Of a DNA stretch of 64,000 nucleotides, positions 10,932-18,325 are shown in pieces (the stretch's first letter is position 1; each line of letters begins with the position of its first letter). A program made the position numbers and the translations under genes. This DNA is from Meridianimarinicoccus sp. MJW13 (lineage in GTDB: Bacteria > Pseudomonadota > Alphaproteobacteria > Rhodobacterales > Rhodobacteraceae), in NCBI RefSeq assembly GCF_014901205.1, contig NZ_JACNMU010000005.1, positions 186,001 to 250,000 on the forward strand, given 5' to 3'. Below the pieces are notes generated by a model that was not told where the DNA came from, searched no databases, and was given only the letters and a program-made list of their open reading frames with translations.

Positions 10932-11195
10932 AAAGGGGGCGCTCCCGCCCTGTGTCGATGCAATGCATCTTCCCCGGTTGGGCCGCGCGCGGCGGCGCCG
11001 CGCGGTCGGTTCCGCACGGCACGCGATGCGCGGGGATGTCGATGGCGGATATTCCGCTCAGAGGCCCTAAGGGGCCCATGTGCCCCTGCGGCCCCTGCCC
11101 TGGGATCGTCACCGTGCCCCCGCCTCAAGGCCAAGCCGATCTGCGATCGGGCACCTGCGGCGCGCCCTGACCCAAGCTCAAAGAGGCTGCGACAT
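10932..11195 (+). repeat. dispersed structured intergenic element, copy A
   Basis: This fills most of the 333-bp gap after purF. It shares blocks with 18057-18325 (reverse strand). CTCCCGCCCT starts at 10942, CCGGTTGGGCC at 10974, GATGGCGG at 11041, GCCTCAAGGCCA at 11122, CCTGCGGCGCGCC at 11154 and GCGACAT at 11189. Hairpins with 3-nt loops include GATGC/GCATC (10957-10969), GCGCGGC/GCCGCGC (near 10988-11004), GCGGA/TCCGC (11045-11057) and CCGATC/GATCGG (near 11136-11150). No convincing ORF is present. It may be a structured RNA in the purF 3' region or a non-autonomous repeat. Confidence 0.8.
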
Positions 11196-11240
11196 GTGGT
11201 TGGTCTTGCGCTTGCCCGGCGGCGGGGGCAAATGGGGGGC

Positions 11241-11894
11241 ATGGAACACCACAGTGATCTCAAGCCGGTGCTGGTCACCGGCGCCTCGCGGGGGCTGGGC
11301 GCCGCCCTTGCCCTGGAACTGGCCAAGCGCGGTCATCATGTCATCGCCGTGGCCCGCACCGTGGGCGGGCTGGAAGAACTGGACGACAAGATCAAGGCCG
11401 CGGGCGGTGCGGCGACCCTGGCGCCGCTGGATGTGACCAATGACGGCGCCATGCAGCATCTGTGCCGGTCGATCCACGACCGCTGGGGCGGGTTGGACAT
11501 CTGGGTGCACACCGCCCTGCACGCCGCACCGCTGAGCCCGGCGCATTTCATCACCACCAAGGACTGGGACCGCAGTCTCGCCGTCAATGTCGACGCCACC
11601 CGCCGCCTGATCTGCTATGTCAGCCCGCTGCTGGGCGAGACCGGCAAGGCGCTGTTCTTCGACGATCCGCGGGCCGGACAAAAGTTCTTCGGAGCTTATG
11701 GCGCCACCAAGGCCGCACAAATGGCGCTGGCGCACTCCTGGGCGGCCGAAACCCCGAAGACCGGCCCGCAGGTGCGCATCGTGACGCCGCCGCCGCTGGC
11801 CACCGCGACCCGGGCCCGGTTCTTCCCCGGCGAGGATCGTGCAGGGCTCACGCCGCCCGCGCAGGCAGCCATGGATATCCTGGCTGAAATCTGA
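11241..11894 (+). CDS. short-chain dehydrogenase/reductase
   Basis: 217-aa Rossmann-fold oxidoreductase. The cofactor motif TGASRGLG is at the N-terminus and the catalytic YGATK (YxxxK) near residue 153. The DPRAG stretch precedes the Tyr where the Ser is usual, and I cannot place the Ser of the triad with certainty. It is slightly short for a classical SDR. Substrate unknown. The ATG at 11241 is preferred over one at 11196 because it fits the SDR N-terminus and has a GGGGGG tract just upstream. It follows purF across the repeat element. Confidence 0.85.
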   Translation: MEHHSDLKPVLVTGASRGLGAALALELAKRGHHVIAVARTVGGLEELDDKIKAAGGAATLAPLDVTNDGAMQHLCRSIHDRWGGLDIWVHTALHAAPLSPAHFITTKDWDRSLAVNVDATRRLICYVSPLLGETGKALFFDDPRAGQKFFGAYGATKAAQMALAHSWAAETPKTGPQVRIVTPPPLATATRARFFPGEDRAGLTPPAQAAMDILAEI

Positions 11895-12018
11895 GGCCGC
11901 GTGACCACGCCTGCGCCCGGTCGGACCGCCCCGAACGCGCGACGGCTTTACCCGGCAGCGGCCTTCCCCTAAGCACAGGGTGCGTTTCCCCGACGCGTCC
12001 GGTTTCTGGAGTCTTCGC

Positions 12019-12804
12019 ATGCGTATCCTTGTCACCAATGATGACGGCATCAACGCCCCTGGCCTGCAAGTGATGGAAGCCATCGCCGTCGAAATCGCCG
12101 GACCGCAGGGCGAGGTCTGGGTGGTGGCACCGGCGTTCGAGCAATCCGGGGTCGGACACAAGATTTCCTATACCCATCCCACGATGATCGCGCAGATGGG
12201 TCCGCGCCGCTTCGCCGCCGAAGGTTCGCCCGCCGATTGCGTGCTGGCGGGCATCTACGACGTGATGGCCGGGGCCGGGCCGGAACTGGTGCTGTCGGGC
12301 GTGAACCGGGGCAACAACGCGGGCGAGAACGTGCTGTATTCCGGCACCATCGGCGCCGCGATGGAGGCGGCTCTGCAAGGGCTGCCCGCCGTCGCCCTGT
12401 CGCAATTCTATGGCCCCGAGAACGCGGAACTGGACGATCCGTTCGACGCCGCCGCACAGCATGGCGCCGCCACCGTGCGCGCACTTCTGAACAACGGCCT
12501 GTGGGACGACGCGGCCTACCGGCTGTTCTACAACGTCAATTTCCCGCCCTTGCCCGCTGCCAGGGTCAAGGGGATGAAGGTCGCCGCACAGGGTTTCCGC
12601 CCCAACACAAGGTTCTCGGTCGAGCCGCACCAGGCCCCCTCGGGCCGCCGGTTCCTGTGGGCCAAAGGCGGACCGCAGGCGGTAGAAACCGGCGCGGGCA
12701 CCGATGTGTCGGCCAACATCGCGGGCCATATCTCGGTCACGCCGCTGCGCGCCGATCTGACCGCCCATGACACCCTGGGCGCGCTGAGGGATCGGCTGGA
12801 ATGA
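12019..12804 (+). CDS. surE: 5'/3'-nucleotidase SurE
   Basis: Stationary-phase survival nucleotidase, 261 aa. The metal-binding TNDDG motif is at residues 6-10 ([16 protein letters not shown]). [16 protein letters not shown] near residues 96-111 is the conserved active-site segment. The start at 12019 gives the canonical N-terminus. The stop overlaps pcm by ATGA, the standard surE-pcm arrangement. Confidence 0.95.
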
Positions 12805-13442
12805 CCGGCGCGGACGAGCGCATCCTGCAGTTCATCTACACCCTGCGCAGCAAGGGGGTAACCGATCCGCGCGTGCTGACCGCGATGGAGCGCACCGACC
12901 GTTCGGTCTTTTTGCGCGGCACCTTCGCCCATCGTGCCTATGAGGACATGCCGCTGCCGATCCCCTGCGGGCAGACGATCTCGCAGCCTTCGGTGGTGGC
13001 CGCCATGACCCAGGCGCTGAAGGTGGGCCCGCGCGATACGGTGCTGGAGATCGGCACCGGCTCGGGCTACCAGGCCGCCGTGCTGGCACGCATGGCGCGG
13101 CGGGTCTATACGGTCGAGCGGCATCGCCACCTGGCCGAGGCCGCCAAAGCCCGGTTTCGCGACCTTGATCTGTCCAATGTCACGGTGTTTGTCGGCGATG
13201 GATCGCACGGGCTTCCCGCGCAGGCGCCCTTTGACCGCATCCTGGTGACTGCGGCCGCCGAGGATCCTCCCGGCCCGCTCTTGGCGCAACTGCGCGAGGG
13301 CGGTATCATGGTGGTGCCCGTGGGGCAGTCCGACGCGGTGCAGACGCTGATCAAGGTGACCCGCACCCCCGAGGGTCTTGAGTACGACGAACTTGGCCCG
13401 GTGCGGTTCGTACCGCTGGTCGAAGGACTTGGTGAAGACTGA
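12801..13442 (+). CDS. pcm: protein-L-isoaspartate O-methyltransferase
   Basis: SAM-dependent repair of isoaspartyl residues in damaged proteins, 213 aa. SAM motif I is [15 protein letters not shown] near residues 76-90. The upstream [11 protein letters not shown] motif is characteristic of PCMT. Translationally coupled to surE (4-nt overlap) and followed by the NlpD-like gene after 42 nt. Confidence 0.94.
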
Positions 13443-13484
13443 ACGCGCCCGCACCAGAACGGGGCGGTTCCAGAGGATACGAGC

Positions 13485-14633
13485 ATGATCAAGGTCACCA
13501 CGGCCCGACACTTCACGCGATTGACCGCCACGCTGCTGCTGTGCGCGGGACTTGGCGCTTGCAGCACCCTGTCGGTGCCCGGCGCCGGCGACGTTCTGAA
13601 CAACGGTTCGGCCACGACGCCAACCGCGCCACGCCCGGCGCCCGATGCGCGCGGCGTCATCTCTTATCCCGGCTATCAGGTCGCCGTGGCCCGCAATGGC
13701 GACACGGTCGCCAGCATCGCCCAGCGTCTGGGGCTGGATGCCACGGCGCTGGCCCGCAAGAACGGCCTGCCCGAGACCGCCGAGCTTGATCCGGGCGAGA
13801 TCGTGATCCTGTCCAGCCGTGTGCCCGAAAGCGCATCTGGCAGCGTCGATGTGGCCACGCTGGCCGGTTCCGCGCTGGACCGGGCCGAGGGCAAACCGGC
13901 GGCGCAAAGTTCCTCGATCACCGCCGCCGGTCCGGAACCGCGCCGCCACACGGTGGTTGCGGGCGAAACCGCCTTCTCGATCGCCCGCAGCTACAATGTG
14001 TCGGCGCAGGCGCTGTCGGACTGGAACGGGCTGGATTCGAACCTGACGGTGCGCGTCGGGCAGATCCTGCTGATCCCGCCCGCCACCGGCCCGGCGCCGC
14101 AGCCTGAGGCCAATGCCGTGGCCACCCCCGGCAGCGGCAGCCCCACCCCGGTGCCGCCCAGTGCCGCGACCCCGCAGCCCGAAAAGGACCTGGCCCCGGT
14201 GGCCAGCGCCCCGATTGCCACCAGCAGTGTGGACAGCACCCCGGCCCCGGCAGCGCAGCAGCAGACCTCGGCCTCGGACACCGCCGCACTTCTGCAACCG
14301 GTGACCGGGCGGATCATCCGAGGCTATGCTCCGGGCAAGAACGAAGGGCTGGATTTCGGCACCGCCGCCGGCGCCTCGGTGCGGGCCGCCGATGCGGGCA
14401 CCGTGGCCGCCATCACCCGCGACACCGACGAGGTGCCGATCCTGGTGTTGCGCCACGACAGCAACCTGCTGACGGTCTATGCCAATGTCGATGACATCGT
14501 GGTGGAAAAGGGCACCCGCGTGACCCGCGGCCAGAAGATCGCCAAGGTCCGCGACGGCGACCAGCCCTTCCTGCATTTCGAGGTGCGCAAGGGCTTCGAA
14601 AGCGTCGATCCGGTGCCGTATCTGTCCAATTGA
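13485..14633 (+). CDS. nlpD: NlpD-like LysM/M23 lipoprotein
   Basis: 382-aa outer-membrane-type lipoprotein: an N-terminal signal with lipobox LGAC (Cys near residue 26), LysM domain 1 (about 65-107), LysM domain 2 (about 149-194), a Pro/Ala-rich linker (about 198-265) and a C-terminal M23 (LytM) domain. Two M23 zinc ligands are missing: the H-x-G-x-D site reads NEGLD and the HLHFE site reads FLHFE. It is therefore probably a non-catalytic activator of cell-wall amidases, as E. coli NlpD is. The position after surE-pcm matches the conserved cluster. GAGGA lies just upstream of the ATG. Confidence 0.85.
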   Translation: MIKVTTARHFTRLTATLLLCAGLGACSTLSVPGAGDVLNNGSATTPTAPRPAPDARGVISYPGYQVAVARNGDTVASIAQRLGLDATALARKNGLPETAELDPGEIVILSSRVPESASGSVDVATLAGSALDRAEGKPAAQSSSITAAGPEPRRHTVVAGETAFSIARSYNVSAQALSDWNGLDSNLTVRVGQILLIPPATGPAPQPEANAVATPGSGSPTPVPPSAATPQPEKDLAPVASAPIATSSVDSTPAPAAQQQTSASDTAALLQPVTGRIIRGYAPGKNEGLDFGTAAGASVRAADAGTVAAITRDTDEVPILVLRHDSNLLTVYANVDDIVVEKGTRVTRGQKIAKVRDGDQPFLHFEVRKGFESVDPVPYLSN

Positions 14634-14766
14634 GTCCTCGCGGCGCCGGGCAGGTGCCGCGCCAGAGGCACGCCGACGCAGCACCATGGGACAGTTGACG
14701 GCTGCTCCCGGTTTCAGCCAGTGCGCGAACCTGCGACTGCGTTTCATTCTAAGGTGATGTTTTTAT

Positions 14767-14795
14767 TTGACATTTCCAAAACGCCGCGAGATACA
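14767..14795 (+). promoter_or_regulatory. likely sigma-70 promoter of mntP
   Basis: Perfect -35 TTGACA (14767-14772), 17-nt spacer and -10-like GATACA (14790-14795). The predicted start site near 14802 coincides with the 5' edge of the riboswitch, which strengthens both calls. The stretch 14634-14766 upstream shows nothing I can identify. Confidence 0.5.
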
Positions 14796-14799
14796 GCGC

Positions 14800-14945
14800 G
14801 CATCGGGGAGTAGCGTCCGCCACCACGGCGGAGGCGCGTCAACATGCTCGCGGAGAGACCGCGTGGCGCGCCTGATCCATGGGATTTCGCGAGACTGTGG
14901 CGTAATGGCTCTGCGGGCGGAGTCCATCCAACGCCCGGATCAGCC
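14800..14945 (+). promoter_or_regulatory. manganese riboswitch (yybP-ykoY type)
   Basis: The leader of mntP contains the conserved GGGGAGTAGC (14805-14814) and GTCAACATGCTCG (14838-14850), separated by a CCGCC/GGCGG hairpin. These are hallmark sequences of the Mn2+-sensing yybP-ykoY aptamer that controls mntP in E. coli. The 3' boundary and the expression platform between 14930 and the ribosome site near 14950 are approximate. Expected effect is Mn2+-induced expression of the efflux pump. Confidence 0.8.
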
Positions 14946-14960
14946 CCGAGGAACCGTTAC

Positions 14961-15521
14961 ATGTCCCCGACTGCCATCGGCGTGCTTGCCGTCTCTATGT
15001 CCATGGATGCTTTCGTCGCTTCGCTGGGACAGGGCACATCCGAGCCGCGTCCCAGTTTCGCAATGACCCTGCGGACCGGGGTGATCTTCGGCCTGGTCGA
15101 GGCGCTCACCCCGCTGATCGGCTGGGCGGCAGGCATGGCGGCAGCCCGGCACATCGCTGTGATCGATCACTGGATCGCCTTCCTCCTGCTGGCCGGGGTC
15201 GGCGCGCATATGGCGCTGCAAGCCTGGCGCGACACCGAACACACCCCGCGAATCCGGTCCGTCTGGGCGACGGTGGTGACCGCGATGGGCACCTCGGTCG
15301 ACGCGATGGCGGTCGGGGTCTCGCTCTCGTTTCTGCAGGTGAACATCCTTTGGATCGCCCTCGCGATCGGCGCGACCACCATGGTGATGAGTTCGACGGG
15401 GGTGCTTCTAGGCCGGTTGATCTGCGCGCGGTTCGGACGCATCGCCGAAACCCTGGGCGGGGTCGCCCTTGTTGCTATCGGCACGACGATCCTGTGGCAG
15501 CATCTGTCCGGCGCGGCCTGA
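14961..15521 (+). CDS. mntP: manganese efflux pump MntP
   Basis: 186-aa membrane protein of the MntP family, six predicted helices in two homologous halves. The [14 protein letters not shown] and [15 protein letters not shown] segments carry the conserved Asp residues of each half. It exports Mn2+ to avoid toxicity. The start at 14961 has GAGGA about 9 nt upstream; the open frame continues upstream but runs through the riboswitch. The 3' end overlaps the convergent DUF815 gene by 47 bp. Confidence 0.92.
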
Positions 15522-16374
15522 GCCGTCGCCCGCAGGTCAGCGCCACGCCCTTGCGACCCGCCAGATCGGTGACGAATTGCCAGGCCACCCGGCCCGAGCG
15601 CGCGCCGCGCGTGGCTTGCCATTCGATGGCCTCGGCCCGCAGCGTGTCGTCGTCGATAGCAATGCCAAAAGCATCGCAATAGCCCCGGATCATGGACAGG
15701 TATTCGTCCTGGCTGCACGGGTGGAACCCCAGCCACAGGCCGAAGCGATCAGACAGCGAGACCTTTTCCTCGGTAGCCTCGCTGGGATTGATCGCCGACG
15801 AGCGTTCGTTCTCGATCATGTCGCGCGGCATCAGGTGGCGCCGGTTCGAGGTGGCATAGAACACCACGTTCGACGGCCGCCCCTCGATCCCGCCATCCAG
15901 CACCGCTTTCAGGCTCTTGTAATGCTCGTCATCATGGCTGAACGACAGGTCATCGCAGAACAGCACGAAGCGCGCGTCCGAGCCGCGCAGGATCGCCATA
16001 AGACGGGTGATGCTGGGCAGATCCTCGCGCTGGACCTCGACGATCTTCAGGTCATGGCCCTGGGTGCGCACCTCGGCATGGACCGCCTTGACCAGCGAGG
16101 ATTTCCCCATCCCCCGCGCGCCCCAGAGCAGCGCGTTGTTGGCGGGCAGGCCGCGGGCGAATTGCAGGGTGTTGGCCAGCAGGGTGTCGCGCGACCGGTC
16201 GATGCCCTGCAGCAGCGGCAGCGCCACGCGGGCGACCTTGGCGACCGGCACCAGCCGGTCTGGCGCCACGTGCCAGACGAAAGCCTCGGCGGACAGGTCG
16301 GGCACAGCCCCCGGCGGCGGGCTCATCCGCTCCAGCGCGGCGGCGATGCGGGTCAGCGCGGCCTTCTTGCTCAT
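15475..16374 (-). CDS. DUF815-family AAA ATPase
   Basis: 299-aa P-loop ATPase of the DUF815 family, function unknown. Walker A is GARGMGKSS near residues 84-92 and Walker [11 protein letters not shown] near 137-146, with [16 protein letters not shown] further on. The start overlaps the tatC stop by ATGA, so it is translated with the Tat genes. The last 16 codons overlap the 3' end of mntP on the other strand. Confidence 0.85.
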
Positions 16375-17261
16375 GACCGCGCGCCGTCTTCCGGGGCTGC
16401 GTCGGCGTCGTCCTCGTCGTCCCACAGGCCCTGCGCCCGCAAGTCCGCCTCGCGGCGTTTCTCGACGTGTTTGACCAGTTGGATCGAGATCTCGTACAGC
16501 CCGTAGACCACCGTGAACAGGATCACCTGGGTGATGACATCGGGCGGCGTGACCAAGGCTGCCAGCACCAGGATGCCCACAACCGCGTATTTGCGCATGT
16601 CCTTCAGGCCGCGCGCCGAAACCAGCCCGGCCTTGCCCATCAGTGTCAACAGCACCGGCAGTTGGAAGCACAGGCCGAAGGCGAAGATGAACTTCAGCGA
16701 CAGGTCGAGGCTTTCACGCACCGAGCCCAGGAAGACGGTCTTCAGTTCTTCGTTCGGGTCGGGCGCCGAGAAATCGCCCTGACCCGCCACCAGATTGGCC
16801 AGCGCCGGAATGGCGTCGGAAAACCCGATGAAGAAGTTCATCGCCAGCGGGGTGACCACGTAATGGGCAAAGGCCGCGCCCAGCAGGAACAGCACCGGCG
16901 AGGCGATCATGAACGGCAGGAAGGCGTCCTTTTCGGACCGGTACAGCCCCGGTGCCACGAATCGCCACAGCTGGTGGGCGATGACCGGGAACGACAGGGC
17001 AAAGCCGCCGATCAGCGAGATCCGGATCAAGACAAAGAACTTTTCCTGCGGCGCGGTAAAGATCAGCCGGGGATCCTCGCCTCGGGCGCGCAGCACATCG
17101 GCGATGGGTTCGGACAGGAATTCAAGCAGCGGCTCTGCCACGATGAAGCACAGGACCATGCCCACGAGAAACGCGATGACCGAGCGGATCAGCCGTGTGC
17201 GCAGCTCCGCAAGATGTTCGATCAGCGGGGCCGAGGTGTCTTCGATCTGGTCGTCTGTCAT
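16371..17261 (-). CDS. tatC: Sec-independent translocase subunit TatC
   Basis: 296-aa six-helix membrane protein that recognises twin-arginine signal peptides with TatB. The N-terminal [15 protein letters not shown] motif, the cytoplasmic [10 protein letters not shown] segment and VTPPDVITQ in the C-terminal half are family signatures. A moderately long acidic C-terminal tail follows. Overlaps tatB upstream and the DUF815 gene downstream by 4 nt each. Confidence 0.96.
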
Positions 17262-17689
17262 GCGGGTTTGGTGTCCGTCGTCTCATCGGCCGCAGCAACC
17301 GCAGGCGTTTCTTCGGGGGGGGTCGCAGTGTCCGCGGGCGGCGTCTTGGGCGTTCCGGTCGCGGCGGGCTTCTTCGCGCCAGACGACTTTGCGGCCGGCG
17401 TGTCCGCCAACGGGTCGTCGGGAAGCTCCAGATCCTTGGCCGCCTTGTTGATCGCGTCCAATCCGAATTGCTTGGGGTTGGTCGCGGCCTTCAGGCTGGT
17501 CTGGATATCCTTGACCCCGGCCTGATCGGCAGCGTCATCCATCGCGCGGGAAAACTCGCGCGCCATGGCCTTGGCCTTGCCGGTGAATTCGCCCATGCGG
17601 CGGAACAGGATCGGCAGATCCTTGGGCCCCACCACGATCAGCGCCACGATCCCGACAACCAATAGCTCGGTCCAGCCGATGTCAAACAT
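17258..17689 (-). CDS. tatB: Sec-independent translocase subunit TatB
   Basis: 143 aa. N-terminal membrane helix [20 protein letters not shown], the GPKDLP hinge, an amphipathic helix (about residues 25-90) and a long Ala/Thr/Pro-rich tail. It forms the receptor complex with TatC. The stop overlaps the tatC start by ATGA. Confidence 0.94.
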
Positions 17690-17720
17690 GCGTCACACGT
17701 CCCGCTCGGGCCACCGGCCC

Positions 17721-17936
17721 TCAGACCTTGTCTTTTTCCGTCTCGGGGGTGATGTCGCGGGCCACGGTGTCATCCGCGTTCTCGATCTCTTCCGAGCCAT
17801 CTTTCACGCCGCGCTTGAAGGCGGTGATGCCCTTGCCGACTTCGCCCATCAGGGACGAGATCTTGCCGCGTCCGAACAGGACCAGTACCACGACGGCAAT
17901 CAGCAGCAGGCCGGGCAGGCCGATATTGTTCAGCAT
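17721..17936 (-). CDS. tatA: Sec-independent translocase subunit TatA
   Basis: 71-aa pore-forming Tat subunit. One N-terminal membrane helix, the FGRGKIS hinge and a short amphipathic helix ([16 protein letters not shown]), then an acidic tail. A GGGAG ribosome site lies upstream of the ATG. It is the first gene of tatA-tatB-tatC-DUF815; its promoter probably lies in the AT-richer 17950-18020 stretch, where I could not fix the boxes. Confidence 0.94.
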
Positions 17937-18011
17937 TTGTCAGTCTCCCTTGGCACCCGGTCGTTTCGGGCGCCCTTCTTGTGATGGATCGTGTCTAAAT
18001 AAGATAAGCAC

Positions 18012-18050
18012 GGGATCAAAGCCCCAAAACCCCCCGCAAGGGCTTTTCCC
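18012..18050 (-). terminator. hairpin between ABC gene/repeat B and tatA
   Basis: GGGATCAAAGCCC (18012-18024) and GGGCTTTTCCC (18040-18050) can pair as an interrupted stem. On the leftward strand it would follow repeat copy B and precede the tatA promoter. The uridine run is poor, so termination is only plausible. Confidence 0.4.
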
Positions 18051-18056
18051 ATCACG

Positions 18057-18325
18057 ATGTCGCAGGGCGCGGACGGCAGAGCCGGGTCAAGGCGCGCCGC
18101 AGGCGCCCGCGCAACGCGCGGCCTGGCCTTGAGGCGGCTCTGGCGGCCCTCACCCTTGAACCGGCGCTTTCAGGGCAGACTTGGCCCTGAAACGCCTCTC
18201 AGCACTGTCATGACAGCCGCCATCCAAGGCCACCCCCTGCCCCGGATCACGCCCGCGCGGCGCAGCCGCGCCGGGCCCAACCGGCGCCCCGGCTGTGCCG
18301 GGGCAGAGGGCGGGAGCCCCCCTTT
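18057..18325 (-). repeat. dispersed structured intergenic element, copy B
   Basis: This fills most of the 393-bp gap between tatA and the ABC gene. Read on the minus strand, its blocks start at 18316 (CTCCCGCCCT), 18284 (CCGGTTGGGCC), 18224 (GATGGCGG), 18135 (GCCTCAAGGCCA), 18103 (CCTGCGGCGCGCC) and 18063 (GCGACAT). The order is that of copy A and the spacing is nearly the same. Hairpins: GCCCCGGC/GCCGGGGC (18286-18304), GCGCGGC/GCCGCGC, CCGCGC/GCGCGG, a 13-bp stem with one bulge (18163-18176 with 18184-18196) and an outer stem CAGAGCCG/CGGCTCTG (18077-18142). It begins 4 nt after the ABC gene stop. Confidence 0.8.

Follow-up and report, generated by a model that had tools for sequence, protein, structure and literature searches.

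Two intergenic sequences of Meridianimarinicoccus sp. MJW13 resemble one another, lie just behind stop codons and hold no convincing gene, which raises the question of what kind of element they represent. Both fall within a 64-kb window of contig NZ_JACNMU010000005.1, the whole stretch of DNA that was analysed.

Copies A and B are related mosaics of hairpin modules

Copy A (10932–11195, plus strand) lies behind a purF-like gene; copy B (18057–18325, minus strand) follows an ABC transporter ATPase gene and precedes tatA. Both were delimited by pairwise alignment and by matches to our R1 model (11108–11187 in A). Pfam domains mark the purF-like product as a glutamine amidotransferase and the other neighbours as a short-chain dehydrogenase, ABC_tran and TatA. 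A sequence-only reading had taken A and B for two copies of one 265-bp element, and their kinship is borne out. Pairwise blastn gave two blocks (each E about 2e-12), one of 77 columns with 77% identity and one of 56 columns with 84%, block order and spacing agree with the figures given earlier, and further copies occur in the same genome and in relatives, other genera included, with more of them behind genes. When used as queries against the window at E < 0.01, A and B matched only themselves and each other, and A had no match in the plasmid records searched. The proposed start near a stop codon also held, at 25 nt past the purF-like stop (10907) for A and 5 nt past the ABC-ATPase stop (18330) for B, as did the lack of a convincing ORF: a codon-usage gene finder calls none in either copy, although mechanical ORFs overlap both.

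The notion of a single 265-bp unit had to be replaced by a composite of separable modules. The element combines a 5' module (CTCCCGCC-hairpin-GTTGGGCC-hairpin) with a 3' module of two hairpins, giving units of roughly 75 or 270 nt. In A, the segment CTCCCGCC–hairpin H1–GTTGGGCC was located by pattern match at 10942–10984 (plus strand), followed by the GC-rich hairpin H2 (10985–11010), the place of a degenerate hairpin P3 with no clear stem (11056–11100; limits of both by eye) and hairpin P4 (CCTCAAGG...CCCTGACC; 11108–11187), the outer stem of which is partly broken. The same order is found on the minus strand in B, with the pattern match at 18274–18316, H2 at 18248–18273 (limits by eye), P3 (GTGCTGAGAGGC ... 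GCGCC) at 18162–18204 and P4 (AGAGCCG-CC-TCAAGGC ... GCCTTGA-CC-CGGCTCT) at 18070–18149. R1 scores P4 at 69.4 bits in A and 79 bits in B, both values being self-inclusive, as the model was built from seven sequences with A and B among them. B folds far better than its shuffles (z-score −3.45; 0 of 200 fold as well). A does not (z-score +0.36; 129 of 200), and therefore looks partly decayed.

The repeat is dispersed through the genus and part of the family

The pattern CTCCCGCCN{17,45}GTTGGGCC had 77 matches in seven genomes of the genus, against three for the reversed control; in the MJW13 genome it had 19 exact copies against none. The 5' module is present in all seven genus genomes. The 3' module has at least eight copies in the MJW13 genome and was found in 22 of 149 family genomes, MJW13 included, three of the 22 being doubtful. 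At least 26 matches to it occur in genome G021, and at least 19 and five copies of the element in G072 and G024; such numbers are lower bounds, as both R1 genome searches scored a subset of the initial candidates (150 and 31 per genome). The same-genus genome G003 gave a weak R1 match (E 0.03), with the other parts of the element absent by eye. Four of the 76 P4 sites (L267, L273, L275, L283) have no P3 and are possibly spurious. A scan of genome contigs returned at least 119 stretches, of which 39 entered one analysis only; among those listed, 23 loci (actinobacteria, archaea, unclassified MAGs and others) were left out.

Copies form genome-specific subfamilies. The P3 stem is common to the copies within each of G072, G021 and G024 and differs between these genomes. 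Within G021, where 22 of the 26 matches were read, the copies carry reshuffled combinations of module variants.

P4 is kept by compensatory changes

The long P4 hairpin of the 3' module has been maintained by compensatory changes over 20 genomes. Among the seven founding copies, both sides had changed in 14 of 21 pairs. Across 83 matches, which give 70 distinct rows, pairing covered 91% of cells, compared with 29–48% after sliding by one to three columns, and double-change cells numbered 245, compared with 69.6 in shuffles. When pair types were counted once per genome (72 sites, 20 genomes; seven second-strand rows and the four doubtful sites left out), 12 of 14 outer pairs had three or four Watson-Crick types; at sites outside model building, 89% of 1349 cells were paired. 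The doubtful sites were kept in the 83-row pairing, strand and orientation counts. Also conserved are the CC/CC internal loop, TCAAGG/CCTTGA and the GCAGGTCTGC loop. Hairpin template switching, instead of selection, could have produced the compensatory changes.

For the 5' module, RNAalifold on a MAFFT alignment of 49 sequences found only three invariant pairs because stem lengths vary, and H1 was judged by register-based counting instead. Counted from either anchor, H1 pairs in register. In its most numerous class, which takes in 58 of the 112 inserts, pair (4,4) was the best offset of the scan and is present in 55 of the 58 with four pair types, where column make-up predicts 43%, and pairs (8,8) to (14,14) are present in 62–95%. 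The invariant CTCCCGCC paired weakly with GTTGGGCC.

The strong P4 covariation and the conserved segments favour a different reading, in which the element is a structured RNA class of 3' UTRs and intercistronic gaps, serving as a cis element or sRNA source and oriented with the upstream gene. We consider this unlikely. The patchy spread and the genome-specific subfamilies argue against it. Mismatches and folding would point to the other strand: A-C outnumber G-T by 58:10 over P4 rows (34:9 once per genome) and by 28:13 in H1, and in 74 of 83 P4 rows the fold is more stable on the opposite strand. Base skew would explain this as well, however, since C-C outnumbers G-G by 18:1.

We also compared the element with Rfam. 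A scan of the window at gathering score found a Mn riboswitch elsewhere and nothing on A or B, and E-value scans of the two copies gave only chance matches far below gathering scores. The Cuckoo/CcsR sRNAs of Rhodobacter carry a C-rich motif in an alphaproteobacterial hairpin, as the element does; their architecture differs, and in sequence they were compared through the Rfam scan of the window. Among the titles and abstracts listed, mostly from outside subscription journals, we found no such Rhodobacteraceae repeat described.

Copies favour the 3' sides of genes

With four duplicates removed, the 5' module (n = 110) lies in 56 convergent, 48 tandem and six divergent gaps, compared with 59, 116 and 66 among 241 background gaps of at least 60 bases. 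Copies are thus concentrated on the 3' sides of genes and rare in divergent gaps. The sequence-only reading also had A and B oriented alike relative to the upstream gene; for the copies at large this is weakly borne out as a tendency and unsupported as a fixed rule. In tandem gaps the 5' module is co-oriented in 25 cases and anti-oriented in 23. For the 3' module the counts are 27 and 14, or 15 with L221, a site called inside a spurious ORF (27:15, p 0.09). Such near-random orientation speaks against an oriented RNA, which is favoured by the 22 sites outside multi-copy genomes, where the 3' module is co-oriented in tandem gaps by 10:2 (p 0.04; one of the ten is the doubtful L267). Also in favour of the RNA reading, the called start of the next gene lies 8–13 nt past P4 at L258, L263 and L279. 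At five other sites (L257, L260, L265, L269, L220) the P4 end (GACTCA) provides the stop codon of the facing gene.

For the three sets examined, the CTCCCGCC end in convergent gaps lies at a median of 18–25 nt past the co-oriented stop. This distance, and the rarity of divergent gaps, would suit transcription terminators of high-GC genomes that are alike through common function, an explanation to which we give little credence. A GC hairpin followed by a U run was not found: the element has no U tract, and terminator-like sites number zero in the A region and one in the B region, outside the element. Further, the same non-palindromic sequence is common to several genera, and copies lie between the neighbouring betB and betA genes, assuming these are co-transcribed.

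The same gap can hold or lack the element

The distance from the ABC stop to the TTTTGGGGCTTTG of the tatA leader is 300 nt in MJW13 and 21, 21 and 24 nt in the same-genus genomes G002, G006 and G001. As the MJW13 gap is thus 276–279 bases longer, B appears to have been inserted behind the stop codon, although the other genomes may instead have lost it. The gap in G003 differs less clearly, no element could be recognised in that of G005 (364 nt), and the region was unreadable in G004. The presence and absence of B count against the structured RNA reading.

Conservation behind purF was considered and rejected, as G001, G002, G003, G005 and G006 lack the full element there. A possible remnant, a TTTGGGCC-hairpin, stands behind purF in G002 and G006, and G013, of another genus, has a 5' module there. 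This survey covered 21 loci with a readable purF of 23 examined (30 fetched, 35 matches), and G004 gave no purF.

The element stands between betB and betA in G062, G097 and G120, and behind betB in G072. Of 60 matching genomes, 30 betB loci were examined and 29 were readable. We take the gap behind betB as a site of gain because P4 was found by pattern in just two of these 29, the gap is at most 37 nt in 12 of them, and others carry different repeat-like motifs. Such motifs were seen by eye behind betB at L337, L340, L344, L346 and L351.

Comparison with known palindromic repeats

The element behaves like known bacterial palindromic repeats. We regard A and B as probable copies of a dispersed Rhodobacteraceae repeat, a mosaic of hairpin modules behind stop codons that is akin to REPs and BIMEs or to intergenic mosaic elements. 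BIMEs and the Rhizobium intergenic mosaic elements (RIME) are reassorting palindromic modules behind genes; the element is likened to them by description and differs in host group. No terminal inverted repeats, a MITE trait, were seen by eye. An attC site was considered, as GTTGGGC resembles the GTTRRRY core, and rejected, with no RYYYAAC partner by eye.

The CGTC REPs of alpha-Proteobacteria are described as 20–40 bp long, with 8–9 bp stems starting AT and a CCA-like tail, as lying in convergent and unidirectional gaps near stop codons, and as forming inverted pairs; in the related GTAG REPs, a stop codon can come from the repeat end (PMC3733652). The element resembles these REPs in being palindromic, in its convergent and tandem gaps by stop codons, in the P4 end that provides a stop codon, in its inverted pairs and in that roughly half of its 5' modules have CGTC before the hairpin. 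It departs from the CGTC-REP format in its hairpin number (two to four), its length (up to about 270 bp) and its other conserved sequence. Rhodobacter, Roseobacter, Ruegeria and Rhodobacterales are absent from the main text of that source (PMC3733652).

An ordinary GTAG or CGTC REP, moved by a REP-associated tyrosine transposase (RAYT), would explain the REP-like placement and the CGTC right behind CTCCCGCC in 55 of 112 inserts. Only four of the 112 start with CGTCAT and nine have CCA near the end, and the CGTC tag is absent from A, B and L090, the long forms in MJW13. A G021 Y1 gene (L328) flanked on either side by inverted 5' modules, as a RAYT would predict, and another (L329) with a copy on one side also favour this reading. 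We read both genes, which we take to be IS200-type, as insertions into the tails of copies, because other copies continue uninterrupted at the same place; no module was found by pattern around the Y1 genes L216 and L324–L327. The Y1_Tnp domain (PF01797) was detected in one of seven genus genomes, as a single partial match (27.6 bits), and in four of the 12 copy-bearing genomes searched, with none in the copy-rich G072 and G024. IS200/IS605-derived palindrome-associated elements lack terminal inverted repeats and have a hairpin near each end, as seen by eye here, in contrast to the missing Y1 match in eight of those 12 genomes. We consider a RAYT-moved REP very improbable.

Implications

The copies would be non-autonomous, spread by a putative enzyme acting in trans and tolerated behind genes. 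Once transcribed, the hairpins probably protect mRNA 3' ends or help to form them, as putative structures that may hinder exonucleases or affect termination while letting read-through proceed. More speculatively, and with low probability, the element may be a mobile plug-in RNA. Such a structured RNA, made of several hairpins, would spread as a DNA repeat into 3' and intercistronic gaps, would give the host gene new post-transcriptional control, and would be kept by compensatory evolution in each amplifying lineage.

The missing mobiliser is a question that the element shares with the CGTC REPs, for which no dedicated transposase is known (PMC3733652). The repeat family, absent from Rfam, is marked by a strong structural signature in about 20 genomes, and its presence or absence in the same gap among related genomes offers natural experiments on how hairpin arrays affect mRNA ends.

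Two copies of a hairpin-mosaic repeat

Copy A (10932-11195, +) lies between a purF-like gene upstream, which carries a glutamine amidotransferase domain (Pfam), and a short-chain dehydrogenase gene; copy B (18325-18057, -) has the gene of an ABC transporter ATPase on one side and tatA on the other. The likeness noticed in the sequence-only reading is real: pairwise alignment gave two common blocks, one of 77 columns at 77% and one of 56 columns at 84% (E ~2e-12 for either), and beyond A and B it found no comparable sequence in the 64-kb window. The family had not been recognised in that reading, and in an Rfam comparison the A and B regions were likewise without a match at the gathering score. 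B is more stably folded than its own shuffles (z -3.45), whereas folding of A is not better than its shuffles (z +0.36), and A therefore looks worn. Near the copies, the Rfam scan placed a manganese (yybP-ykoY) riboswitch at 14793-14955 (+; 49.1 bits), 5' of a small membrane-protein-like ORF (14844-15521).

The further copies expected of a true element were found in the organism's own genome (G000; 4.02 Mb, 20 contigs) and in relatives, using a 5'-module pattern and R1, a model of hairpin P4 built from seven founding copies including A and B. The 5' module reads CTCCCGCC, variable hairpin, GTTGGGCC, second GC hairpin. Its exact pattern matched 19 times in G000 (reversed control, 0) and 77 times across the seven genus genomes, all of which contain it (reversed control, 3). 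In the long form, the module is followed by a spacer, hairpin P3 (CTGAGAGGC ... GCAGGTCTGC ... GCC) and P4, in which a CC/CC internal loop separates the outer stem from TCAAGG pairing with CCTTGA; a pattern flag marked a P3-like start immediately 5' of P4 at 59 of 76 sites. A different motif, GAGTATTT..CAAGAAGAA, occurs within 75 nt after the module in 8 of the 19 own copies.

Other modules were also seen. A GAGTATTTNNNNCAAGAAGAA-like motif lies immediately 3' of the second hairpin in G000 copies L024, L028, L077, L078, L081, L083, L086 and L088, and many copies in the relative G021 are followed by TTTCTTCAAATATACCCCGCCGGAGGC, a related motif in reverse. An extra module with a CAAACGCTGCGGGGCAGCGTTTG hairpin occupies the interval between 5' module and P3 in G021 copies L268, L305, L308, L310, L314, L317, L321 and L329. 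A different hairpin with a CCCACCCGCCCACCC-like loop replaces the 5' module 3' of stop codons at L262, L264, L279, L332, L337 and L346.

Covariation and distribution

Inserts between the two 5'-module anchors pair in register from both ends. The largest class comprises 58 of the 112 inserts. Its pair (4,4), the best among the offsets scanned, is formed in 55 of these 58, against 43% expected, and takes four pair types; pairs (8,8) to (14,14) are formed in 62-95%. For P4, both sides changed in 14 of 21 pairs among the seven founders. In an 83-row alignment of matches, fitted to R1 and including 7 rows that repeat a counted site on its other strand, 91% of cells are paired vs 29-48% after sliding, and double-change cells number 245 vs 69.6 in shuffles. 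With those 7 rows and 4 doubtful sites left out, 72 sites in 20 genomes remain; when a pair type is scored no more than once in any genome, three or four Watson-Crick types are seen at 12 of the 14 outer pairs.

Of 149 family genomes, G000 among them, 22 matched R1 (three of the 22 doubtful): at least 26 matches in G021, 19 in G072, 8 in G000 (6 of them founders) and 5 in G024, with one or two in each remaining genome. Elsewhere in the genus it matched one site in G004, itself a founder, and a doubtful site in G003. Three 5'-module matches (L098, L155, L159) fall on contigs titled Nocardioides marinus DP1N28-1, possibly wrongly assigned.

Placement and turnover

Genes were called with a small purpose-written codon-usage finder trained on the window. 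The 5'-module sample (19 own copies, 34 copies from other genus loci and 64 copies from 57 Rhodobacteraceae-titled loci) was trimmed to 110 by removing 4 own copies fetched twice (among the 34) and 3 edge copies (among the 64). Convergent gaps held 56, tandem 48 and divergent 6, against 59, 116 and 66 background gaps, a set itself enriched for the element because most of its loci were fetched for it. Within convergent gaps, the median distance from the co-oriented stop to the CTCCCGCC end 3' of it is 18-25 nt; in tandem gaps co-oriented and anti-oriented modules stand at 25:23. The 76 P4 sites, with 4 more G021 matches left out, divide into 27 ++, 28 +-, 14 -- and 3 -+, 2 with a single neighbour and 2 called within an ORF. 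At five sites the facing gene takes its stop codon from the end of P4.

The tatA leader is identifiable in G000, G001, G002 and G006, where the distance from the ABC stop to TTTTGGGGCTTTG is 300, 24, 21 and 21 nt, respectively. The G000 surplus of 276-279 bases agrees with the 269-bp length of B. A gain of B in G000 would be the simpler reading of this comparison of four same-genus genomes, though not the sole one. The full element is absent 3' of purF in five same-genus genomes. Among further Rhodobacteraceae, the betB/betA gap carries it in G062, G097 and G120, it also lies 3' of betB in G072, and the gap 3' of betB is at most 37 nt in 12 of 29 readable loci. The P3 stem is common to copies within each of G072, G021 and G024 and differs from genome to genome, and module variants are reassorted among G021 copies. 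Together, presence and absence at gaps, genome-specific P3 stems and reassortment argue that the element behaves as a dispersed repeat, not a vertically kept RNA gene.

In G021 two Y1 transposase genes (L328, L329) adjoin copies, and L328 has inverted 5' modules on either side, as expected of a RAYT. Y1 matches are almost missing from the genus (7 genomes), and G072 and G024 gave none. In G021, the copy tails end at the Y1 unit where other copies of that genome continue uninterrupted. Because the tails stop there, we read both genes, presumably of IS200 type, as probable insertions into the element's tail.

The element differs in size and in its stems from the CGTC REP families that have been described (PMC3733652). 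For this reason, and since its link to a transposase is putative, we do not class it as a CGTC REP. Its position between adjacent bet genes speaks against its being a strong terminator. The element probably works as REPs and intergenic mosaic elements do, and may serve as a structure at the 3' end of transcripts.
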